A stretch of 64,000 bases of DNA from an uncultured Eudoraea sp. Its GTDB lineage: Bacteria > Bacteroidota > Bacteroidia > Flavobacteriales > Flavobacteriaceae. Shown here in pieces: positions 22,304-32,808 of this stretch. The stretch spans positions 186,001-250,000 of the forward strand of contig NZ_CANLGX010000001.1 in assembly GCF_947490415.1 (NCBI RefSeq). Reading direction: 5' to 3'. The translations under genes and the position numbers were made by a program. The notes below the pieces were generated by a model. That model was given only the letters and a program-made list of their open reading frames with translations, did not search any database and was not told the DNA's origin. Numbering within the stretch: position 1 is the first letter of the stretch; every line of letters starts with the position of its first letter.

Positions 22304-23665
22304 ATGGCTTCAAGGATTTCCTCCTATTGGAATCTCCATAAATTTACAATCCTAATGGTATTGGCAAGTCTCTTGTTCTATACCAGCTTCGCATATGACC
22401 TTGTGCGAACAGATTTCATAAAGCTTATCAGCCTTTTTTTTGCCCTCTTTTTCCTCTGTTATAAACTGATTCAATTTGAAAAGTGGAATTTTAATTTTCT
22501 ACTGATTTCCGGTATTCTTTTTCGTTTGATTTTTCTTTTGGTCGAACCAAACTTGTCTCAGGATTTCTATAGATTTATCTGGGATGGTGAATTAGTCCTC
22601 TCCGGTATAAATCCGTATTTACAGTCACCCGATACTATTATGGAAAATGGCGGGATACTTTTGGCCAATGCTCAGGAATTGCATAACGGCATGGGCTCTT
22701 TAAGCGCCAGACATTTTAGTAATTATCCGCCTTTAAATCAACTGCTGTTTGCTATTTCTGCCTTTTTGGGAGGGAAGAGTATTATGGGATCTTTAATAGC
22801 CATGAGATCTATTATTATACTGGCCGATATTGGCATCTATTATTTTGGGAAGAAATTACTGCGGTACCTAAACAGATCACCATATCTTATTTTTTGGTAT
22901 TTTTTAAATCCCCTGGTAATCATAGAACTTACAGGTAATTTGCATTTTGAAGGCGTGATGCTATTTTTCTTTATTTGGGGCTTGTGTTTAATTACGCTAA
23001 ATAAGTGGTTGTTTGCAGCTATCGCATTTGCATGTTCCATTTCAGTGAAACTCGTGCCCTTAATGTTCCTTCCTTTGTTTATTAGCTATTTTGGATTTAG
23101 GAAAAGTATGAAATTTTATATAGTGCTGGGATTAGGGATTTTAATGGGTGTTTTGCCATTTTACTCATCCGAATTCCTTAACAATTATACGAATACAGTT
23201 GGCTTGTGGTTTTCTAATTTTGAATTCAATGCCGGCATCTACAATTTAATTAAGCAGATCGCAATAAAATTTGATGTAAAACCATGGGAGCTAATTAAAA
23301 TCTATGGGAAATTAGTTCCATATATAATGATAGGTTTTGTGTTGTTACTAACTTTTTTAAGGGATAATAAAAAAATGCCAATCCTAATAAGTTCTTTGTT
23401 ATGGGTGCTCGCACTTTATTACTTCCTGTCTTCCACGGTGCATCCATGGTATATAATTTTCCTCATAGGGTTGTCCATTTTTACAGATTACCGTTTCCCA
23501 CTGGCCTGGTCAGTAGTGATCATTTTAAGTTACTCTGCCTATGAAAACCCTGAATTCAAAGAGAATCTTGGGTTTCTTTTTATTGAATATTTCGTAGTAT
23601 TTGGATTTATGATTTACGAAATATTTAAATTGAAAGGTCTAAAATTGCTAATTCGTAAAAATTAG
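22304..23665 (+). CDS. Polytopic GT-C-type (mannosyltransferase-like) membrane protein
   Basis: 453 aa, very hydrophobic, about 10-12 membrane spans. After the first two spans comes a periplasmic-type loop with EPNLSQDFYRFIWDGELVLSGINPY, the acidic loop signature of GT-C glycosyltransferases (PIG-M/GT87-like), then SNYPPLNQLLFA and a late STVHPWYIIFL. GT-C enzymes use polyprenyl-phosphate sugars, which the DPM1-like enzyme upstream could provide. It is separated from the CesA-like gene by 136 nt carrying an inverted repeat and a promoter, so it may be expressed separately. It closes the arsenosugar-type region before the arginine operon. Confidence 0.82.
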   Translation: MASRISSYWNLHKFTILMVLASLLFYTSFAYDLVRTDFIKLISLFFALFFLCYKLIQFEKWNFNFLLISGILFRLIFLLVEPNLSQDFYRFIWDGELVLSGINPYLQSPDTIMENGGILLANAQELHNGMGSLSARHFSNYPPLNQLLFAISAFLGGKSIMGSLIAMRSIIILADIGIYYFGKKLLRYLNRSPYLIFWYFLNPLVIIELTGNLHFEGVMLFFFIWGLCLITLNKWLFAAIAFACSISVKLVPLMFLPLFISYFGFRKSMKFYIVLGLGILMGVLPFYSSEFLNNYTNTVGLWFSNFEFNAGIYNLIKQIAIKFDVKPWELIKIYGKLVPYIMIGFVLLLTFLRDNKKMPILISSLLWVLALYYFLSSTVHPWYIIFLIGLSIFTDYRFPLAWSVVIILSYSAYENPEFKENLGFLFIEYFVVFGFMIYEIFKLKGLKLLIRKN

Positions 23666-23711
23666 AACGCATATTATGATAGTTCAATTTAATTTGTACA
23701 TTTGATCTGCA

Positions 23712-23789
23712 ATGAAAAAATGCTTAAACATAACTTTGCCTCTTTGGAATTCTATTCCCGTACGCTCCTTTGTACGTCCACGCCCGTAA
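23712..23789 (+). CDS. Candidate arginine leader peptide (25 aa)
   Basis: A 25-codon frame (ATG 23712, TAA 23787-23789) starts MKKCLNITLPLW and ends VRSFVRPRP. Three of its last eight codons are Arg (CGC 23763, CGT 23775, CGC 23781). It lies 84 nt before the first gene of the arginine biosynthesis operon and overlaps three tandem hairpins, the last followed by a T-rich tract. This is the layout of a ribosome-mediated attenuator, in which stalling at Arg codons would break the hairpins. No ribosome-binding site is obvious, and translation is inferred only. Confidence 0.5.
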   Translation: MKKCLNITLPLWNSIPVRSFVRPRP

Positions 23790-23828
23790 GGGTGTATTTC
23801 TTTCTTGGAAATAGGTGAGTCCATTTCC
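23746..23828 (+). promoter_or_regulatory. Tandem hairpins: candidate arginine attenuator
   Basis: Four stems lie in series. They are GGAAT/ATTCC (23746-23758), CGTAC/GTACG (23759-23776), ACGCCC-GTAA-GGGTGT (23780-23795, one G-U pair, then the T-rich ATTTCTTTCTT), and GGAAATaGG/CCATTTCC (23807-23828). The third, a terminator candidate, contains the leader stop codon in its loop, and its 5' arm carries the last Arg codon. A ribosome held at any Arg codon would cover stem 2 or 3. The fourth lies 45 nt before the GNAT start and has no T run directly after it. Confidence 0.5.
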
Positions 23829-23873
23829 GCACAATCACATCAAATATTTTTTATCATTTAAAAAAAGCTAGCA

Positions 23874-24488
23874 ATGGAAATATTAATTGCTAACGAATCG
23901 CACTTTAAATACGCCAAAATAATTAGTGACACTATTGCCGAATCGGCTAATGTGAGAGGAACCGGTATTGCCCAGCGAACGCCTGAATATATAATTAAAC
24001 GGCTGGAAAATGGGAATGCTGTCATTGCTTTGGATGGTGATAATTTTGCTGGATTCTGTTATATAGAAGTATGGGGACACCAAAAATTCGTAGCCAATTC
24101 AGGGCTTATTGTTCATCCTGATTACAGAAATCAAGGCCTTGCGAAAAAAATTAAAAAAGCAATTTTTGAACTTTCCTTGAAAAAATTTCCGGAAGCTAAA
24201 ATTTTTGGAATTACAACGGGTCTTGCTGTAATGAAAATGAATTACGAATTAGGATATAAACCCGTTACCTTTTCAGAATTAACTAATGATCCGGCTTTTT
24301 GGAAAGGATGCCAAACATGCAAAAATTTTGACGTGCTCACCAGAACCGATCAAAAAATGTGCCTATGTACCGGTATGTTATATGACCCCACAAAGGCCGT
24401 AGCCAAAAAAGAAAGGCTAAATGATAAGGCTTTTAAAAGGCTTAAAACAATTAAAGAGCAATTATTTCTTAAAAGAAAGAACAAATGA
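23874..24488 (+). CDS. GNAT acyltransferase heading the arginine operon
   Basis: 204 aa. A GNAT fold with the acyl-CoA loop RNQGLAKK (85-92) after GLIVHPDYR. The C-terminal part carries CxxC (Cys146, Cys149) and CxC (Cys163, Cys165), a probable metal site that is unusual for this family. As the first gene of the arginine operon, overlapping argG by 4 nt, it is the best candidate for the enzyme that acylates glutamate (the ArgA role). Since the carbamoyltransferase downstream looks like the succinyl type, the acyl donor may be succinyl-CoA. That is inference. Confidence 0.75.
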   Translation: MEILIANESHFKYAKIISDTIAESANVRGTGIAQRTPEYIIKRLENGNAVIALDGDNFAGFCYIEVWGHQKFVANSGLIVHPDYRNQGLAKKIKKAIFELSLKKFPEAKIFGITTGLAVMKMNYELGYKPVTFSELTNDPAFWKGCQTCKNFDVLTRTDQKMCLCTGMLYDPTKAVAKKERLNDKAFKRLKTIKEQLFLKRKNK

Positions 24489-25675
24489 AAAAATTAGTTT
24501 TGGCTTACAGTGGTGGCCTTGATACTTCTTACTGCGCCAAATATTTATCCCAGGAAGAAGGCTTTGAAGTACATGCAGTAAGTGTCAATACCGGTGGGTT
24601 TTCCTCAGAAGAAATTGCACTTATTAAAGAAAAAGCTCTTCAGTTAGGCGCTACCAGCTATACTTCTATTGATGCACTGGAACATTTTTATGAAAAGGTG
24701 GTAAAGTACCTTATCTATGGTAATGTGTTAAGAAATAATACCTATCCCTTATCCGTAAGTGCCGAAAGAATAGTTCAGGCTATCGAAATTGTGAACCATG
24801 CTAAAAAAATAGGTGCTGAGTATATTGCTCATGGGAGTACGGGTGCAGGTAATGATCAGGTAAGGTTTGATATGATTTTCCAGATTCTCGCGCCTAATAT
24901 CAAAATTATTACTCCCATAAGAGATAAAAGTTTGTCCAGAGAAGCCGAGATTGAATACCTGCAGGAAAATGGAATTGATTATTCCTGGGAGAAAGCCAAA
25001 TATTCGATAAACAAAGGATTATGGGGTACTTCGGTAGGTGGCGACGAAACGCTTACCTCCCATTTGCCCTTACCGGAGTCTGCATTCCCTTCACAATTAA
25101 TTGCAACAGATCCAAAAGAAGTTAAACTGGGTTTTTTTAAAGGTGAATTGGTTTCTGTCAACGGTCAAAAAAGCACTCCTATTCAAAATATAATTACCCT
25201 CGATGCTTTAGCCTCCAAATATGCCATAGGAAGGGATATACATGTAGGTGATACCATCATAGGCATAAAAGGAAGAGTAGGATTTGAAGCCGCGGCATCA
25301 CTTATCATTATTAAAGCTCATCATTTGTTGGAAAAACACACGCTTAGCAAATGGCAGCAATTTCAAAAAGAGCAATTGGGCAATTTTTACGGAATGCTCT
25401 TACATGAAGGCAATTATCTGGATGAAGTAATGAGGAACATAGAAGCATTTCTAAGTGATACCCAAAGAAATGTCTCCGGGGAGGTTTCAGTAAGCTTACA
25501 CCCTTATCGATTTGAATTGAACGGTATTAACTCCGGGAATGATTTAATGAATGCTTCTTTTGGTAATTACGGAGAAACAAATAAAGCATGGACGGCAAAT
25601 GATGCTAAAGGCTTTATTAAAATTCTGTCAAATCCAGGAAAAATAGCTAATCAAATAACTCAAAATGATGATTAG
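24485..25675 (+). CDS. argG: Argininosuccinate synthase
   Basis: 396 aa, full length. It joins citrulline and aspartate with ATP to make argininosuccinate (EC 6.3.4.5), the second-to-last step of arginine synthesis. The PP-loop AYSGGLDTS (8-16) is intact, with AHGSTGAGNDQVRFD, and NKGLWGTSVGG in the citrulline/aspartate region. It overlaps the GNAT gene by 4 nt (ATGA) and argC by 11 nt, so expression is tightly coupled. Confidence 0.96.
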   Translation: MKKLVLAYSGGLDTSYCAKYLSQEEGFEVHAVSVNTGGFSSEEIALIKEKALQLGATSYTSIDALEHFYEKVVKYLIYGNVLRNNTYPLSVSAERIVQAIEIVNHAKKIGAEYIAHGSTGAGNDQVRFDMIFQILAPNIKIITPIRDKSLSREAEIEYLQENGIDYSWEKAKYSINKGLWGTSVGGDETLTSHLPLPESAFPSQLIATDPKEVKLGFFKGELVSVNGQKSTPIQNIITLDALASKYAIGRDIHVGDTIIGIKGRVGFEAAASLIIIKAHHLLEKHTLSKWQQFQKEQLGNFYGMLLHEGNYLDEVMRNIEAFLSDTQRNVSGEVSVSLHPYRFELNGINSGNDLMNASFGNYGETNKAWTANDAKGFIKILSNPGKIANQITQNDD

Positions 25676-26642
25676 AGCAGGTATTATTGGAGGGTCTGGT
25701 TATACCGGGGGTGAGCTTATCAGGCTTTTACAAAATCATCCCCAGGTCACCATAGATTTCGTATACAGTACAACAAAAGCAGGCAAAAAAATTAGTGGGA
25801 CCCATACAGATTTATTAGGTACTTTGGATTTGACTTTTACAGATTCGGTGAATGCGGAAGTTGATATCCTTTTCCTTTGTTTGGGCCATGGAAATTCCAA
25901 AAGCTTTTTAAACAGCCATTCTTTTTCTCCCAAAACAAGAATTATTGATTTAAGCAACGATTTCAGATTAAAGCAAGATGCCTCTTTCGTCGGAAAAGAA
26001 TTTGTGTATGGTCTTCCCGAATTAAACAGAACTGCCATAAGCAGCGCCAGATATATTGCCAATCCGGGTTGTTTTGCTACATGCATTCAATTAGCTCTAT
26101 TGCCGCTTGCCAGTACTCAATTATTGAATGCTGATGTACATGTTAATGCGGTAACCGGAAGCACAGGTGCAGGAATAATGCCGTCGGCTACTACACATTT
26201 TAGCTGGAGAAATAATAATGCATCCTGGTATAAAGCATTTACACACCAACATCTGGGAGAAATAAATGAAAGTCTGGAATCTCTGCAAGAAACTGTTGGA
26301 GAACTTTATTTTATTCCCAACAGGGGAAACTTTTCACGGGGTATTCTCAGCACTGCATATACAAAGTTTGAAGGCAGTGAGACGGAAGCTTATGATTTAT
26401 TTCACGAATTCTATAAAGGGGCCGTTTTTACACTTATTGCAGAAGAGCCGGTTCACATAAAACAAGTAGTGAATACGAATAATTGTCATATTCACCTGCA
26501 CAAGTACAAGGATGTTCTTTTAATAACATCTGTAATTGACAATCTGCTTAAAGGGGCTTCCGGACAAGCCATTCAAAACATGAATTTAATGTTAGGTTTT
26601 AATGAAAGTGAGGGCTTAAATTTAAAGGCATCCGTTTATTAA
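25665..26642 (+). CDS. argC: N-acyl-gamma-glutamyl-phosphate reductase
   Basis: 325 aa. It reduces N-acylglutamyl phosphate to the semialdehyde with NADPH (EC 1.2.1.38). Seen: IIGGSGYTGGELIRLL (8-23), the catalytic cysteine in NPGCFATCIQL, and SGAGIMPSATTHF-like acceptor residues. The first of two tandem ATGs (25665, 25668) lies inside argG, giving an 11-nt overlap. 48 nt separate it from proC. The size is typical of the short ArgC class. Confidence 0.95.
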   Translation: MMIRAGIIGGSGYTGGELIRLLQNHPQVTIDFVYSTTKAGKKISGTHTDLLGTLDLTFTDSVNAEVDILFLCLGHGNSKSFLNSHSFSPKTRIIDLSNDFRLKQDASFVGKEFVYGLPELNRTAISSARYIANPGCFATCIQLALLPLASTQLLNADVHVNAVTGSTGAGIMPSATTHFSWRNNNASWYKAFTHQHLGEINESLESLQETVGELYFIPNRGNFSRGILSTAYTKFEGSETEAYDLFHEFYKGAVFTLIAEEPVHIKQVVNTNNCHIHLHKYKDVLLITSVIDNLLKGASGQAIQNMNLMLGFNESEGLNLKASVY

Positions 26643-26690: not shown

Positions 26691-27488
26691 ATGAAAATAG
26701 CCATTATTGGAGCGGGAAATTTAGGCTTATCGATTGCTAAAGGTATTTTACATAGTAACGGAGCTACCACAATGTATCTGACCAAAAGACATCCCGATAG
26801 TATTAAGAACTATGAAAAATATGGAAATGTAACGGTCGGTTCGGACAACAGGAAAGCGGTTGAAAAATCTGATATATTAATATTTGCTGTTCAACCACGA
26901 GATTTTGCAATGATTTTGGAACAAGTTAAGGATCTTCTCACCGAAAAACATGTAATAATCTCAACGATAACCGGTTTTAGTATTGAAAAAATGGAAGGCA
27001 TTCTCGGAAAAGAAAAGCATATTATCCGCAGTATGCCCAATACGGCCATTTCCGTTGGTAAATCTATGACCTGCATCTGCTCCAATACAGCAGGTAATAA
27101 ACGTATAGATCTTGCAAAAGCCATTTTTAACAGAATGGGCTATTCCCTGGAAATACCCGAAAATCAAATGCAGGCAGCAACTGTAATATGTGCAAGTGGA
27201 ATAGCTTTTTGGATGCGCCTTATCAGAGCTACTACACAGGGTGCCATTCAGTTAGGTTTCGATGCCAAAGAAGCACAGGAGCTGGCTATGTACACTTGTA
27301 ATGGGGCGTCCGGCTTACTTATAGAATCGGGGAATCATCCTGAAGAAGAAATAGATAAGGTAACCACCCCTATGGGTTGTACTATTCAAGGATTAAACGA
27401 AATGGAGCATCAGGGTTTGAGTTCTTCACTTATCAGGGGAATAGTAGCTTCCTTTGAGAAAATAAATGAATTCAAAACCAATGACTAG
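26691..27488 (+). CDS. proC: Pyrroline-5-carboxylate reductase
   Basis: 265 aa. It makes proline from pyrroline-5-carboxylate with NAD(P)H (EC 1.5.1.2). Rossmann motif IIGAGNLGLSIAKG (4-17), FAVQP near 64, SMPNTAISVG, and the C-terminal family motif TTPMGCTIQGLNEME, a variant of the common PGGTT signature. Its position within the arginine operon, between argC and argD (43 nt after it), links proline and arginine supply. A role on an acylated arginine-pathway semialdehyde is possible but not supported by motifs. Confidence 0.9.
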   Translation: MKIAIIGAGNLGLSIAKGILHSNGATTMYLTKRHPDSIKNYEKYGNVTVGSDNRKAVEKSDILIFAVQPRDFAMILEQVKDLLTEKHVIISTITGFSIEKMEGILGKEKHIIRSMPNTAISVGKSMTCICSNTAGNKRIDLAKAIFNRMGYSLEIPENQMQAATVICASGIAFWMRLIRATTQGAIQLGFDAKEAQELAMYTCNGASGLLIESGNHPEEEIDKVTTPMGCTIQGLNEMEHQGLSSSLIRGIVASFEKINEFKTND

Positions 27489-27531: not shown

Positions 27532-28659
27532 ATGGAACTATTTGATGTATACCCTCTATATGATGTAACCCCGGTTACTGCCAAGGGCATTGTTATCACA
27601 GATGATAAGGGAAATAAATATCTCGATTTCTACGGCGGTCATGCCGTTATCTCCATCGGGCATTCCCACCCATATTACATAGAACGCATTAAAAGTCAAA
27701 TAGATAAAATAGGATTTTACAGTAACTCCGTTAAAAATCCGTTACAAAAACAACTGGCTAGCAGACTGGGGGAAGTATCCAATTGCCAGGATTATAATTT
27801 ATTTTTGTGCAATTCAGGGGCCGAGGCTAATGAGAACGCCTTAAAACTAGCCTCTTTCCATACAAATAAATCCCGGGTAATTGCATTTACCAATAGTTTT
27901 CATGGTAGAACATCAGCTGCAGTTGCCGCAACGGATAATGAGAAGATAAATGCGCCTATAAATAAACAGCAAAAAGTTACATTTTTATCATTTGAGGATA
28001 TTAAAGCCTTTAAAACTGAAATCAAAAAGGAAGATGTTTGCGCAGTTATTCTGGAAGCCATACAGGGAGTTGGCGGTTTAGACGAGCCATCGGGTATATT
28101 CTATCGGGAAATTGCCGCACATTGTAAAAAATATGGCGTAGTTCTAATAGCTGATGAGGTGCAATCTGGTTTTGGCCGAAGTGGTTCTTTTTTTGCCTTT
28201 CAACACCACAAAATAAAGCCAGATATAATAACTATAGCTAAAGGCATGGGAAACGGCTTTCCTGTTGGTGGTGTATTAATTCATAAAAACATTCAGGCAT
28301 CTTACGGGCTACTGGGAACCACTTTTGGTGGAAATCATCTTGCATGTACAGCTGTTTTAGCCGTTTTAGAGGTTTTGGAAAAAGAACACCTTATTGAAAA
28401 TGCCGAAAAACTGGGTAAATACTTCAAACAAAAAGCTTCAGAGATACCACAGGTTAAGGAAATAAAAGGTAGGGGGCTTATGTTGGGATTAAAATTTGAT
28501 TTTGAGGTTGCCGATTTGCGAAAACGACTAATTTACAACCAACATCTATTTACCGGAGGAGCAAAAGACAAATATGTACTTAGGGTTCTTCCGGCTCTGA
28601 CAATTAATGAAAATGATCTGGATCAATTTTTTGAAGCCTTAAAAAATGAATTGCAATGA
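27532..28659 (+). CDS. argD: N-acylornithine aminotransferase
   Basis: 375 aa class-III PLP aminotransferase. It converts N-acylglutamate semialdehyde to N-acylornithine with glutamate as donor (EC 2.6.1.11 or the succinyl-type 2.6.1.81). PLP features: NSGAEANENALKLA, FHGRTSAAVAAT, ADEVQSGFGRSG and the lysine in IAKGMGNGFPVGG, followed by GTTFGGNHLA. Length is at the short end of the family. It overlaps argF' by 4 nt (ATGA). Confidence 0.95.
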   Translation: MELFDVYPLYDVTPVTAKGIVITDDKGNKYLDFYGGHAVISIGHSHPYYIERIKSQIDKIGFYSNSVKNPLQKQLASRLGEVSNCQDYNLFLCNSGAEANENALKLASFHTNKSRVIAFTNSFHGRTSAAVAATDNEKINAPINKQQKVTFLSFEDIKAFKTEIKKEDVCAVILEAIQGVGGLDEPSGIFYREIAAHCKKYGVVLIADEVQSGFGRSGSFFAFQHHKIKPDIITIAKGMGNGFPVGGVLIHKNIQASYGLLGTTFGGNHLACTAVLAVLEVLEKEHLIENAEKLGKYFKQKASEIPQVKEIKGRGLMLGLKFDFEVADLRKRLIYNQHLFTGGAKDKYVLRVLPALTINENDLDQFFEALKNELQ

Positions 28660-29597
28660 AACATTATCTTTCAATAAACGACATTGATTCAGTTAATAGA
28701 TGGGTTGAAGATGCCTTAGCTCTTAAGAAAAAACCATTAGCCTTTAAGAAACTTGGCAGGAAAAGAACTATTGGGTTGTTATTCTTTAATAACAGCTTAA
28801 GAACCCGTCTTAGCACGCAAAAGGCCGCCATGAATTTAGGGATGAAAGTCATGATTATGAATTTTGGCAAAGACGGATGGGCACTGGAGTTCGAAGATGG
28901 AACTATCATGGATAAAGGAAATGCCGAACACATAAAGGAAGCTGCCCAGGTAGTCTCGCAGTATTGCGATATCCTCGGAATCAGAGCTTTTGCTTCTTTA
29001 AAAAACAAGGAAGCGGATGAAGCAGAACTGGTAATTAATTCATTTAAAAAATATGCAAGTATCCCGGTTCTGAATATGGAGAGTTCTGTTGGCCATCCCC
29101 TTCAGGCGCTTACAGACCTAATAACTATTGAGGAATACAAAAAGAGTACAGATCCCAAAATTGTATTATCCTGGGCTCCACATCCCAAAGCACTTCCTCA
29201 GGCCGTTGCCAATTCTTTCATTGAAATTATGCAATTAAAGAATGCAAATTTTACAATAACACATCCTAAAGGATATGAACTGGATCCAAAGGTTACCAAA
29301 AACAGCAGAATTGAGTATGATCAGGAAAAAGCACTGAAAGATGCCGATTTTGTTTATGTTAAAAACTGGAGCAATTACAAAAACTATGGTAAAGTAATTA
29401 ACCAGGATAAAAATTGGATAATAACCGAAAAAAAACTGGGGAATGCTAAATTTATGCATTGTCTGCCTGTTCGACGTAATGTGGTAGTGGAAGATGCCGT
29501 TTTGGACGGGAATCAATCCCTGGTCATAGAACAGGCTAATAACAGAACTTTTGCGGCTCAAATCGTATTAAAAAAGATGTTGGAAACATTGAAATAA
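28656..29597 (+). CDS. argF': N-succinylornithine carbamoyltransferase (ArgF'-type)
   Basis: 313 aa. It carbamoylates N-acylated ornithine instead of free ornithine, the Bacteroidota variant of arginine synthesis. Seen: the carbamoyl-phosphate site FFNNSLRTRLSTQ (43-55), unlike the STRTR of ornithine enzymes; MESSVGHPLQALTDL; WAPHPKALPQAV; and MHCLPVRRN near the C terminus. These closely follow the Bacteroides fragilis succinyl enzyme as I recall it. The residue at the specificity position (Pro90 there, Glu92 in the acetyl-specific Xanthomonas enzyme) is Ala90 here, which argues against acetyl specificity. It lies between argD (4-nt overlap) and argB. Confidence 0.9.
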   Translation: MKHYLSINDIDSVNRWVEDALALKKKPLAFKKLGRKRTIGLLFFNNSLRTRLSTQKAAMNLGMKVMIMNFGKDGWALEFEDGTIMDKGNAEHIKEAAQVVSQYCDILGIRAFASLKNKEADEAELVINSFKKYASIPVLNMESSVGHPLQALTDLITIEEYKKSTDPKIVLSWAPHPKALPQAVANSFIEIMQLKNANFTITHPKGYELDPKVTKNSRIEYDQEKALKDADFVYVKNWSNYKNYGKVINQDKNWIITEKKLGNAKFMHCLPVRRNVVVEDAVLDGNQSLVIEQANNRTFAAQIVLKKMLETLK

Positions 29598-29635
29598 TTA
29601 AATTTTTGCCATATATGCGGCACCATTTAAAAGTT

Positions 29636-30415
29636 ATGAAACAAAAACTTGCCATAGTAAAAATAGGAGGAAACATAATTGAAGATCAGGAATCCTTATC
29701 TCAATTTTTGAAACTTTTTGCGCAGTTGGAAGGAAAAAAAGTTTTGGTTCATGGTGGCGGCAAACGAGCTACGGATTTTGGCAAAAAGCTTGGCATAGAA
29801 TCTAAAATGGTCGACGGCAGAAGAATTACGGATGCCCAAAGCCTTGAAGTTGTGGTTATGGTTTATGCAGGGCTCGTTAACAAAAACATTGTAGCTCAGC
29901 TTCAAACAAGTAATTGCAATGCGATTGGACTAAGTGGGGCCGATGCAAATACTATCATTGCTGAAAAACGCCCGGTAAATGAAATTGATTTCGGATTTGT
30001 TGGAGACGTTATAGCTGTTAATGCGGAGTCCATATCCCGACTATTAAACGCTGTATTTGTGCCGGTTTTCTGTGCACTGACTCATGATGGACGGGGACAG
30101 TTATTAAATACAAATGCAGATACAATTGCTTCCGAAGTGGCCATTGCTCTGAGCCACACTTATGACACGACCCTATATTACTGTTTTGAGAAGAAAGGAG
30201 TGCTTCGTACCATAACTGATGAGGATTCCGTAATAAGAAGAATTAATATGGAGAGCTATCAGAAACTGAAACAACAAAAAATCATTGCTGACGGTATGCT
30301 TCCAAAATTGGAAAATTGTTTTCATGCACTTAATAAGCGTGTTCAGCGCGTCTGTATTGGAGATCTCTCAATGCTTGAGCCTAAAGCCCAATTATTTACT
30401 ACTATCACTTTATGA
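29636..30415 (+). CDS. argB: N-acylglutamate kinase
   Basis: 259 aa from the ATG at 29636. Upstream in-frame starts exist (ATG 29615, TTG 29606), but MKQKLAIVKIGG begins right at the first beta strand, as in the family. It phosphorylates N-acylglutamate (EC 2.7.2.8). Amino-acid kinase motifs: KIGGNIIED, VHGGGKRATDF, GLSGADANTI, NTNADTIASEVAIAL and the late IADGMLPKLENC. It overlaps argE by 4 nt. Confidence 0.94.
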   Translation: MKQKLAIVKIGGNIIEDQESLSQFLKLFAQLEGKKVLVHGGGKRATDFGKKLGIESKMVDGRRITDAQSLEVVVMVYAGLVNKNIVAQLQTSNCNAIGLSGADANTIIAEKRPVNEIDFGFVGDVIAVNAESISRLLNAVFVPVFCALTHDGRGQLLNTNADTIASEVAIALSHTYDTTLYYCFEKKGVLRTITDEDSVIRRINMESYQKLKQQKIIADGMLPKLENCFHALNKRVQRVCIGDLSMLEPKAQLFTTITL

Positions 30416-31485
30416 GAACAGATCAAAATTTACTAATTAAAAAAGCAATTGGACTGCTGCAAGAGTTAATTGCCACGCCGTCTTTTTCTTCAGAAGAAGA
30501 TATGACTGCACAACTTCTTGAAAATTGGTTTCACGAATTTGATATTCCTTATACAAGAGTTAATAACAACGTCTTTGCCTTCAACAAATGTTTTGACAAA
30601 GCTAAACCTACCTTACTGCTAAATTCACATCACGATACTGTAAAACCCAACGGGGCCTACACAAAAGACCCCTTTGACCCTCAGATTACAGACGGTAAAC
30701 TATTTGGTCTTGGAAGCAACGATGCCGGGGGTTGCCTGGTATCACTTATTGCGACTTTTACCTATTTCTACGAATCGGAAAATTTAAATCACAATATAAT
30801 AATCGCAGCTACGGCAGAAGAAGAAAGTTCGGGGGGTAAAGGTTTAAATAGCCTTTTAAGCATCCTTCCAAAAATTGATGTTGCAATTGTAGGGGAACCA
30901 ACGCAGATGAATCTGGCTATTGCAGAAAAAGGGCTGGTTATTTTTGACGCCATAGTTAATGGCACTCCTTCTCATGCAGCACATCCAAATTACAACAATG
31001 CCATTTATAATACTATTGAAGTGTTGGAATGGTTTAAGAACTATAGATTTCCAAAAACATCGGAAGTTCTGGGTGAAGTTAAATTAACAGTGACACAAAT
31101 TAATGGAGGTAGCCAGCATAATGTAGTGCCTGCCAACGTTAATCTTGTAATTGATGTACGTGTTAATGATAGATACAACAATAAGGAAATAGCTGATATG
31201 TTATCAAGGGAAGCCCCTTGTGAGCTCAAGCCCAGATCTTTAAGATTGAATTCTTCTTCCATAGACAAGAATCATCTTTTGGTACGTTCGGGGGTTGCAT
31301 TGGGAAGAAGCACTTATGGCTCTCCTACCCTTTCAGATCAGGCAACACTTAGCTGCCCTTCATTAAAATTAGGCCCCGGGGATAGTACACGTTCACATAC
31401 TGCCGATGAGTATATTTATATTAAGGAAATTGAAGAAGGAATTAATTTATACATTAAAATACTCGATGGGTTTTTAACAAACTAA
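30412..31485 (+). CDS. argE: M20-family N-acylornithine/acylcitrulline deacylase
   Basis: 357 aa zinc peptidase-like deacylase. The metal-site residues are visible: His73/His74 and Asp75 in NSHHDT, Asp104 in GSNDAGG, the catalytic and ligand glutamates in TAEEESSGG (136-138), Glu162 in GEPTQ and a final His in RSHTADEY. In this pathway the carbamoylated product, N-acylcitrulline, must be deacylated to citrulline before argG acts, which is the expected substrate. It is the eighth gene of the operon, 48 nt before argH. Confidence 0.9.
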   Translation: MRTDQNLLIKKAIGLLQELIATPSFSSEEDMTAQLLENWFHEFDIPYTRVNNNVFAFNKCFDKAKPTLLLNSHHDTVKPNGAYTKDPFDPQITDGKLFGLGSNDAGGCLVSLIATFTYFYESENLNHNIIIAATAEEESSGGKGLNSLLSILPKIDVAIVGEPTQMNLAIAEKGLVIFDAIVNGTPSHAAHPNYNNAIYNTIEVLEWFKNYRFPKTSEVLGEVKLTVTQINGGSQHNVVPANVNLVIDVRVNDRYNNKEIADMLSREAPCELKPRSLRLNSSSIDKNHLLVRSGVALGRSTYGSPTLSDQATLSCPSLKLGPGDSTRSHTADEYIYIKEIEEGINLYIKILDGFLTN

Positions 31486-31533: not shown

Positions 31534-32808
31534 ATGAAACTTTGGGACAAAGGATACAGTACGGATAAAAAAATTGATCATTTTACAGTGGGTAACGATA
31601 GGGAATTAGATTTGGTACTGGCTAAGTATGATGTAATAGCCTCCATGGCCCATGCAAAAATGTTAGGTAAAATTGGGTTATTGACAAGTGAGGAAACACT
31701 TGTCCTGGTCCGTGAACTGGAGAATATAGGCCAGAGTATTAAAGAAGGAACGTTTATAATTGAAGATACCTTCGAGGATGTTCACTCTAAAATAGAATTT
31801 TTATTAACCGAAAAACTTGGCGATACAGGAAAAAAAATTCATACGGCCCGTTCCAGAAATGACCAGGTTTTGGTAGCTATGCAATTATATCTAAAGGAAG
31901 AATTATCTGAAATAAAACACCTGACCAAAGAACTGTTTAAATTACTGATTGAACTAGCTGAAAAATACAAAGAACTTTTATTGCCCGGATATACCCATTT
32001 CCAAATTGCAATGCCTTCTTCATTTGGATTGTGGTTTTCAGCATATGCGGAAAGTCTTATTGATGACCTTTACTTTATAGATTCAGCTTTTAAAATTGCT
32101 GATCAAAACCCACTTGGAAGCGCGGCCGGTTACGGAAGTTCCTTTCCAATTGATCGTTCTTATACAACTACGGAAATGGGGTTTGCAGATATGAAGTATA
32201 ATGTTGTAGCTGCCCAAATGGGACGCGGAAAAGTGGAGAAAGCAACTGCTTTTGGCATCTCAGGAATTGCCGGCACTTTGTCTAAGCTGGCAATGGATAT
32301 TTGTCTCTATATGAGTCAGAATTTCAATTTTATATCGTTTCCCGATGCACTAACAACCGGCAGTAGTATTATGCCCCATAAAAAAAATCCGGATGTCTTT
32401 GAACTTATCAGGGCAAAATGTAACAGCCTGCAAGCGATCCCTAACCATATTACTCTTATCACAACTAATCTACCCAGTGGTTATCACAGAGACCTGCAAA
32501 TGGTAAAGGGACTAATAATCCCGGCAATTCAGGAAATAAAATCCTGTTTGGAAATGATGACTTTCAGTTTAAAAGATGTTAAGGTGAATTCCGATATTCT
32601 GGATGATCCTAAGTATGATTATCTTTTTAGTGTAGATACTTTGAATCAACTCGTTCTAAGTGGAATACCTTTCCGTGATGCTTATAAACAAATGGGTGCT
32701 GAAATTGAAGCAGGGTCTTTTAAACCTAAAAAACAATTAAAACATACTCACGAAGGGAGCTTGGGTAATTTGTGTCTGGATAAGATAAAGGATAAAATGA
32801 AGACATAA
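31534..32808 (+). CDS. argH: Argininosuccinate lyase
   Basis: 424 aa. It splits argininosuccinate into arginine and fumarate (EC 4.3.2.1), the final step. The fumarase/aspartase superfamily signature GSSIMPHKKNPD is present, along with HTARSRNDQVLVA and PLGSAAGYGSSFPIDR. The length is somewhat under the usual 450-470 aa because the C-terminal domain is short. It is the last gene of the nine-gene operon. No perfect terminator follows, only a CACTAAA/TTTAGTG inverted repeat (32856-32878). Confidence 0.95.
   Translation: MKLWDKGYSTDKKIDHFTVGNDRELDLVLAKYDVIASMAHAKMLGKIGLLTSEETLVLVRELENIGQSIKEGTFIIEDTFEDVHSKIEFLLTEKLGDTGKKIHTARSRNDQVLVAMQLYLKEELSEIKHLTKELFKLLIELAEKYKELLLPGYTHFQIAMPSSFGLWFSAYAESLIDDLYFIDSAFKIADQNPLGSAAGYGSSFPIDRSYTTTEMGFADMKYNVVAAQMGRGKVEKATAFGISGIAGTLSKLAMDICLYMSQNFNFISFPDALTTGSSIMPHKKNPDVFELIRAKCNSLQAIPNHITLITTNLPSGYHRDLQMVKGLIIPAIQEIKSCLEMMTFSLKDVKVNSDILDDPKYDYLFSVDTLNQLVLSGIPFRDAYKQMGAEIEAGSFKPKKQLKHTHEGSLGNLCLDKIKDKMKT

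Follow-up and report, generated by a model that had tools for sequence, protein, structure and literature searches.

The nine-gene arginine operon of this uncultured Eudoraea sp. is directly preceded by a short leader frame whose last codons are rich in arginine and run into a conserved RNA hairpin. Ribosome-mediated arginine attenuation is the best explanation for this arrangement and we consider it probable, while the broader proposal, that the leader makes the operon respond to arginine, is very likely. The sequence-only reading of this DNA had proposed such an attenuator. From that proposal, a leader peptide that is under selection and tied to the arginine operon was upheld, and its arginine codons extend into the 5' arm of hairpin 1, which is conserved; the roles that it gave to two of its stems were not supported, and a second conserved hairpin was added.

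Leader region and arginine operon

The window is the whole stretch of DNA that was analysed, 64,000 nucleotides long. The leader region in it comprises these features:

23697 to 23704, + strand: Bacteroidota -7 promoter element TACATTTG (TAnnTTTG), assigned from sequence
23712 to 23789, + strand: arginine leader ORF of 25 codons, MKKCLNITLPLWNSIPVRSFVRPRP-stop, conserved in relatives
23746 to 23758, + strand: hairpin 0, inside the ORF (GGAATTCTATTCC), moderately supported
23759 to 23776, + strand: middle hairpin CGTACGCTCCTTTGTACG (CGTACG/CGTACG), at genus level only
23780 to 23795, + strand: hairpin 1, ACGCCCGTAAGGGTGT (ACGCCC-GTAA-GGGTGT), in canonical form in 92 of 111 regions
23796 to 23806, + strand: pyrimidine-rich linker from hairpin 1 to hairpin 2, of near-constant length
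23807 to 23828, + strand: hairpin 2, GGAAAT-A-GG-TGAGT-CC-ATTTCC, bulged, with loop AGGTGAGTCC and a co-varying stem
23829 to 23873, + strand: unpaired G-poor stretch before the first gene, tentatively a possible Rho entry region

The arginine codons of the leader ORF are located at 23763, 23775 and 23781, and its TAA stop at 23787-23789. The upstream neighbour of the leader is an ORF ending at 23665, for which no Pfam or NCBIfam match was obtained. Both the 25-codon frame at 23712-23789, with its three arginine codons before a nine-gene arginine operon, and the three hairpins at 23746-23758, 23759-23776 and 23780-23795 had been described in the earlier reading, and they were confirmed in the sequence. 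A second, overlapping frame at 23720 was set aside; it occurs in several members of the genus with similar DNA and is absent in L010.

Downstream of the leader, nine genes follow in the same direction:

23874 to 24488, + strand: GNAT-family acetyltransferase, first operon gene (Pfam PF00583, E 4.6e-07; no NCBIfam match)
24485 to 25675, + strand: argG, argininosuccinate synthase (E 1.9e-88, below the curated cut-off)
25665 to 26642, + strand: argC (above cut-off)
26691 to 27488, + strand: proC (above cut-off)
27532 to 28659, + strand: argD-type aminotransferase (subfamily, below cut-off)
28656 to 29597, + strand: argF', of the N-acetylornithine carbamoyltransferase type (above cut-off)
29606 to 30415, + strand: argB (above cut-off)
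30412 to 31485, + strand: argE/dapE-type deacylase, argE-like (below cut-off)
31534 to 32808, + strand: argH (above cut-off)

Considering the window sequence alone, the case for a regulatory leader is modest. At least three arginine codons were present among the last ten in 1.6% of dinucleotide shuffles of the window leader, its fold z-score was -1.25 versus shuffles, and one terminator-like site was scored where 0.3 were expected. It is the conservation in relatives that makes the case decisive.

Conservation in the family

A total of 117 upstream regions were compared, ten of them from genomes of the genus (own genome included) and 107 from other genomes of the same family. They were taken, from the closest matches downward and leaving out G066, from 207 genomes with a match to the first operon gene, that is, 199 of the 299 family genomes and eight further genus genomes. 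The alignment with relatives, suggested beforehand as a check of the leader, showed conservation far beyond chance. Regarding 11 further, more distant loci of the same family, the element was recognized by eye in L162-L167, two of which repeat genomes already counted, and was missing from five loci of the genus g127.

The association with the operon was also examined by a DNA pattern scan, blind to genes, in which hairpin 1 and the loop of hairpin 2 were searched for in 84,980 genomes. At least 118 stretches were obtained, and in 114 of the 118 loci listed the first operon gene follows on the same strand at a distance of 30-200 nt (operon content at these loci was assessed by the first gene only). 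In another two, L223 and L291, this gene is located on the same strand at 727 and 790 nt, and the gap of more than 700 nt perhaps corresponds to an inserted gene. The other two are cut off 17 and 74 nt past the element, which leaves no room for a gene, and none of the 118 loci listed has the first operon gene on the opposite strand. The 80 titled loci belong to genera which we take to be Flavobacteriaceae or to unresolved Bacteroidota bins.

Furthermore, a covariance model of the element was used class-wide, and among 395 sampled genomes none outside the family gave a strong match. Matches outside the family with E values of 0.0006-0.1 occurred in 49 genomes, versus about 38 expected by chance; one of them, in G446, lies about 140 nt upstream of the first-gene homologue of that genome. 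For the 14 family genomes among the matches listed, nine matches were strong, that of G497 was weak and elsewhere in the genome, and four g127 genomes gave none. In the own genome the model found one strong copy (E 3.8e-18, the next being 0.545), and a scan with the loop pattern gave seven one-mismatch matches besides the exact one, the reversed pattern giving three. No Rfam family matched the leader element at the gathering score. A tRNA gene at 155-227 is the only match of that level in the window.

Tandem arginine leaders were also observed. In Flavobacterium-like regions such as L122, L115, L113, L112 and L087, an extra upstream ORF is present about 290 nt before the first gene. The one in L113, MKNLKNKIRCSVPGLPARNYRRCF-stop, precedes by some 140 nt the RRP-stop with which the second leader ends.

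Coding constraint on the leader peptide

The leader peptides were studied in a set of strict leaders, in which a TAnnTT-type box is followed after 3-9 nt by an ATG whose open frame stops just before hairpin 2. This definition, in which arginine plays no part, describes 55 of the 111 regions with hairpin 2. Arginine accounts for 15.7% of the codons of these 55 leaders versus 3.5% in 14 genes of the window, and the codons chosen are also different: CGY (CGT and CGC) represents 212 of the 234 leader arginine codons (91%) versus 41 of 176 in the window genes, where AGA is the commonest. The last ten codons contain a mean of 3.84 arginines in the leader frame, versus 1.55 and 0.27 in the other two frames. 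Codon -4 is arginine in 50 of the 55 leaders (26 CGC, 23 CGT and 1 CGA) and codon -3 in 43. Since the pairwise differences at these two codons fall mostly on third positions (1599 out of 2531), arginine has been kept by synonymous change. The arginine leader frame is constrained as a coding sequence.

All 55 strict leaders end in Arg-Pro-stop, 54 of them as CGCCCGTAA or CGCCCGTAG, and the stop codon is TAA in 50, TAG in five and TGA in none. This ending alone is no proof of selection on the peptide because both codons also form an arm of hairpin 1. Upstream of the arginine codons the peptide is poorly conserved, so that mainly these codons and the final proline are kept. The arginine run is also retained in regions outside the strict set, with endings such as RRTFVRA-stop (L056/L059), RRTSVRV-stop (L071), RRRPGRM-stop (L088) and RRRPYPRL-stop (L094). 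Moreover, a test without selection of the frame covered the 260 nt before the gene in 116 regions, L006 (short contig) and L162-L167 being excluded. An ORF with four or more arginines among its last twelve codons was present in 79 of the 116, and the shuffle p value was <= 0.05 in 93.

Promoter element and predicted transcription start

In Flavobacterium psychrophilum, the TAnnTTTG -7 box is reported to span positions -12 to -5 (PMC9723704). In the 55 strict leaders, 5-9 nt separate the box from the ATG (7 nt in 40 of them), within a selection that permitted gaps of 3-9 nt. Because of these gaps and of the position of the box, a 5'UTR of 1-5 nt is predicted; in the window, transcription would start near 23709, leaving a 5'UTR of about 3 nt. 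A start downstream of 23789, named beforehand as an argument against the leader, is thus the opposite of what the box predicts. The message of the arginine leader is probably leaderless, a class to which only 5.5% of the mRNAs of F. psychrophilum are reported to belong (PMC9723704).

Conserved RNA structures

Two alignments made on sequence only were used for the structures: A1, with 95 of the 110 distinct sequences, which remained after thinning at 90% identity, and A2, with 40 of the 55 strict leaders. Both were built from pattern-selected sequences and were not fitted to a structure, which is the frame in which the following values are to be read. The 13 pairs of hairpins 1 and 2 are standard pairs in 89.6% of the cells of A1, and two-sided changes were found at eight of them, seven in hairpin 2 and one in hairpin 1. 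The covariation score was 0.235, while shuffles gave 0.117 and none of the 500 reached the observed value; structures slid along the alignment scored 0.021-0.148.

Hairpin 2 is the strongest conserved structure of the leader region and is absent from the sequence-only reading. It was detected in 111 of the 117 upstream regions by a pattern search (G[GA]TG[ATC]G[TG][CT]C, with at least four stem pairs). Inspection by eye of the six regions without a match showed altered forms in L121 and L078, degenerate ones in L085 and L106, and little or nothing in L092 and L101. The loop is TGAGT, TGTGT or TGCGT in 106 of 107 tabulated regions, a constancy that, like the inner pairing, is partly due to construction because the search pattern permits few other loops. 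Pair types were tabulated by bulge class. On A1, two-sided changes affect seven of its eight pairs. A T stands before the hairpin in 94 of the 111 regions, a G is found at its base in 85 of the 111, and the distance from GGGTG to its stem is 11-13 nt in 93 of 98. Hairpin 2 was also considered as an intrinsic terminator and rejected, as at least five T are found in the 8 nt after the stem in only eight of 111 regions.

Hairpin 1 overlaps the end of the frame, its 5' arm holding the Arg-Pro codons and its loop the leader stop codon. In fact, the stop lies within a GTAA or GTAG hairpin loop in 54 of the 55 strict leaders. The canonical form is CGCCC-GTAA/GTAG-GGG, and most of the 19 noncanonical regions keep by eye a hairpin of changed sequence, e.g. 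CGCAC-GTTT-GTGCG; pairing is thus preserved in changed forms such as GCAC/GTGC. The stem has 5-6 bp. On A1, 93.7% of its cells are paired and one of its five pairs shows two-sided change.

Support for hairpin 0 is moderate. By eye, a hairpin of differing sequence is present near the same place in many relatives, and on A2 two-sided changes were observed in all five pairs, with 61.8% of cells pairing; on its own, this hairpin reached p <= 0.05 in only 10 of 54 leaders. The middle hairpin, to which a part in the attenuation had been given as the second stem, has no conservation outside the genus on A2 and, within it, is lost by eye in L005 and L010. It is probably outside the mechanism.

The stretch between hairpin 2 and the first gene is poor in G, with a mean of 17.5% C and 5.6% G and more C than G in 101 of 110 regions. 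Control stretches of 45 nt before ORFs of the window have 15.5% C and 12.2% G, with more C than G in 18 of 27. The first gene starts about 30-90 nt beyond hairpin 2, and the intervening stretch is AT-rich and not conserved; these lengths are approximate, since for the 79 regions extracted by position the gene was taken to begin 640 nt into the region, a point that can be as much as about 8 nt early.

Proposed mechanism and alternative explanations

According to the promoter box, RNA polymerase would start about 3 nt before the ATG and ribosomes would load on a nearly leaderless message. The ribosome would then read a short peptide whose final codons, the CGY arginine cluster, extend into the 5' arm of hairpin 1. 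Under a shortage of charged arginyl-tRNA, the ribosome would wait on the arginine codons, hairpin 1 would be held open and the operon would be transcribed. When arginine is plentiful, the ribosome would finish and leave, and hairpin 1 could close. Closed hairpin 1, together with hairpin 2 at its fixed distance, would lower the expression of the operon. No regulated element other than the opening and closing of hairpin 1 can be read directly from the layout, and we consider it rather likely that this hairpin is the part switched by the ribosome. As hairpin 1 would be open both with a ribosome stalled on the arginine codons and with one on the stop codon, the switch would therefore depend on release.

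How the closed form would act is a more tentative matter. The best guess is that transcription would be reduced, the polymerase pausing and then being terminated by Rho within the G-poor stretch that follows hairpin 2, rather than at a classical terminator hairpin. The gap of 11-13 nt, with a T ahead of hairpin 2 and a G at its base, resembles hairpin-stabilised pausing, and Rho sites are G-poor relative to C. Base composition is what points, weakly, to Rho, and a transcriptional and Rho-assisted output is possible but doubtful.

Several properties of attenuators were found in this leader: the codons for the end product are kept synonymously, its place before the operon is steady, and there is a conserved structure over the codons and the stop, with the two-sided changes mostly in hairpin 2, beyond the stop. 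Mutually exclusive terminator and antiterminator hairpins with a U-tract were not found among the features of the leader, and it is therefore not filed as a classical terminator-type attenuator. With the ribosome modelled on the arginine codons or on the stop, the 3' arm of hairpin 1 gained no alternative partner in 54 leaders, so the classical swap of terminator and antiterminator is not supported. Long-range pairing of the leader with the pre-gene region was also sought within the family by four tests, each of which gave p <= 0.05 in no more than two of the 54 leaders.

These observations bear on the alternative that survives best, a classical attenuator in which hairpin 1 and its T-rich tail form an intrinsic terminator blocked by a ribosome stalled on arginine codons, as had been claimed for the third stem. 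The window copy was scored as terminator-like, the linker after hairpin 1 is rich in T (mean of 3.73 T per 8 nt) and a classical his attenuator is present in this genome. However, at least five T in the next 8 nt were found in only 23 of 98 relatives, which together with a stem of 5-6 bp makes a poor intrinsic terminator across the family, and the more conserved hairpin 2 would be left unexplained. We regard this explanation as unlikely.

Hairpin 2 itself could instead be the sensor or effector site, as a ligand-binding RNA or as a target of a protein or of the polymerase, the leader only setting the timing. Its near-invariant loop beside a co-varying stem suggests recognition of the loop, and the single strong copy in the own genome and the fixed spacing would fit such a site. 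Nevertheless, the arginine codons are conserved too, by synonymous change, and arginine leaders precede the same gene in other families, where the model gave no strong match among 395 genomes; the lack of an Rfam family match also speaks against it. This possibility seems rather more unlikely.

Control by translation or mRNA decay instead of transcription has a parallel in mycobacteria, where leaderless polycysteine ORFs are described as controlling the translation of downstream genes (PMC9031893). Here, no sequestered start site is apparent because the first gene starts about 30-90 nt past hairpin 2 in an AT-rich, unconserved stretch, and such control is improbable.

A nascent-peptide arrest of the TnaC type, in which Arg-Pro-stop would stall the ribosome on binding free arginine or another ligand in place of a count of charged tRNA, would agree with the ending shared by all the strict leaders. 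TnaC itself ends in R23-P24-stop and is described as acting through Rho (PMC8429421). Nonetheless, family variants and the leaders of other families lack this ending, the hairpin arm also constrains the last arginine and proline codons, and the peptide before the arginine codons is poorly conserved, unlike an arrest peptide. Moreover, induction by the end product would have the wrong sign for biosynthesis. Hence, arrest of this type appears very improbable. Finally, a chance small ORF with hairpins, for which only the modest window statistics speak (1.6% of shuffles and a fold z-score of -1.25), is refuted by the conservation and by the strict association with the arginine operon, and its probability is negligible.

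ArgR and arginine leaders in other families

Arginine operons are usually regarded as being controlled by ArgR, a DNA-binding protein that serves the same physiological end as the leader proposed here. The ArgR family (PF01316) gave no match in 100 genomes of the family, versus matches in 9 of 14 control genomes, a Bacteroides among them. In further Bacteroidota with the first gene, one of 56 genomes (five of the 56 being g127) was positive for ArgR. This genome, G800, shows five identical partial matches, perhaps in a mobile element.

For other families, 39 loci were obtained out of 58 genomes with a first-gene match. In 22 of these 39 loci, the same gene is preceded by an arginine-rich leader (shuffle p <= 0.05) that is different from the family leader. 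They are distributed as 11 of 11 in f104, four of four in f91, two of three in f79, two of three in f36, one of two in f41 and the single loci of f63 and f16. No such leader was found in f92 (0 of 5), f2 (0 of 4), f85 (0 of 2), or the singletons f103, f105 and f106 (0 of 3), nor in g127 of the same family as the window (0 of 5). The endings in other families include RRR-stop, PNRQ-stop and RPVRV-stop.

The f104 leaders (L191-L198, L200, L201 and L203), exemplified by MQKSLAHRIDRRSVRRIPRRR, end in IPRRR-stop in seven of the 11 loci and carry a co-varying hairpin after the stop. In addition, leader codons 6-12 perfectly complement, over 7-12 bp, a segment lying roughly 25-60 nt ahead of the first gene in the 11 loci, several of which are close relatives. 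The shuffle fraction for this complement was <= 0.01 in six loci and <= 0.05 in seven. It was first noticed by eye and RNAalifold did not predict the pairing, but to judge from these comparisons it looks real.

The first gene is also found without an arginine leader in g127 (L168-L170, L176 and L180), f92 (L181-L184 and L187) and f2 (L186 and L188-L190). ArgR gave no match in the genomes tested from g127 (5), f2 (9) and f92 (2). Since these groups are without both, a missing ArgR alone does not require an arginine leader.

It seems from these data that arginine leaders are found repeatedly in the phylum, combined with different RNA parts. A wider proposal, which is speculative but worth considering, is that in Bacteroidota without ArgR leaderless arginine-rich leaders could govern arginine synthesis, each family having its own output module; in Flavobacteriaceae, the read-out would be not a terminator but the bulged hairpin with its near-invariant loop, 11-13 nt behind the stop-codon hairpin, recognised by a factor or by the polymerase, and ribosome stalling would be read out in a new way. 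In any case, the leader would offer a specific answer to how arginine is sensed in a large family without detectable ArgR, and it supplies a conserved RNA hairpin as a candidate part in attenuation. If it is true that the output is no terminator, a textbook mechanism would gain a new read-out step.

Comparison with known systems

Leader attenuation has already been proposed for amino-acid operons of Flavobacterium, and 5' elements of hisG and pheA are named there; the attenuation section of that paper does not name arginine, of which its supplements may hold an entry (PMC9723704). In Bacteroides thetaiotaomicron, long 5'UTRs were described as having short ORFs reminiscent of leader peptides, in an account that leaves arginine unmentioned (PMC7366714). 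No arginine leader of this kind in Bacteroidota was found among the open-licence papers listed by literature searches.

Like the his and trp leaders and the flavobacterial hisG and pheA elements, the arginine leader is a short ORF that carries end-product codons, stands immediately ahead of the corresponding biosynthetic operon and is overlapped at these codons and at the stop by RNA hairpins. It differs from them in having no canonical terminator, a stop codon in a hairpin loop and a conserved, bulged second hairpin at a fixed distance. The his leader of the own genome, MRTKNTHHHLYTCTQAR-stop (L330, upstream of the hisG ORF, on contig C3 near 201000), is followed by a canonical terminator, AACCCGTTTGAGCAATCAAACGGGTTTTGCTTTT, which carries a U-tract. 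By eye, its layout is similar and it is likely leaderless.

Regarding TnaC of E. coli, the likeness lies in a short leader ending in Arg-Pro-stop with a reported Rho site downstream (PMC8429421), to be compared with the G-poor stretch described here. Nevertheless, the signal for TnaC is free tryptophan and the operon that it induces is catabolic, whereas in the arginine leader it is the arginine codons, and not the peptide, that appear to be conserved.

The candidate cysteine leaders of Mycobacterium are reported to carry the regulated codon in runs close to the stop, to lack an obvious terminator and to have possible Rho sites (PMC1262725), and the polycysteine short ORFs are described as leaderless and as acting as attenuators (PMC9031893). 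They differ in the amino acid, cysteine, and belong to another phylum. By analogy, these terminator-less cysteine leaders and their leaderless polycysteine form are the nearest designs to the arginine leader of the Flavobacteriaceae.
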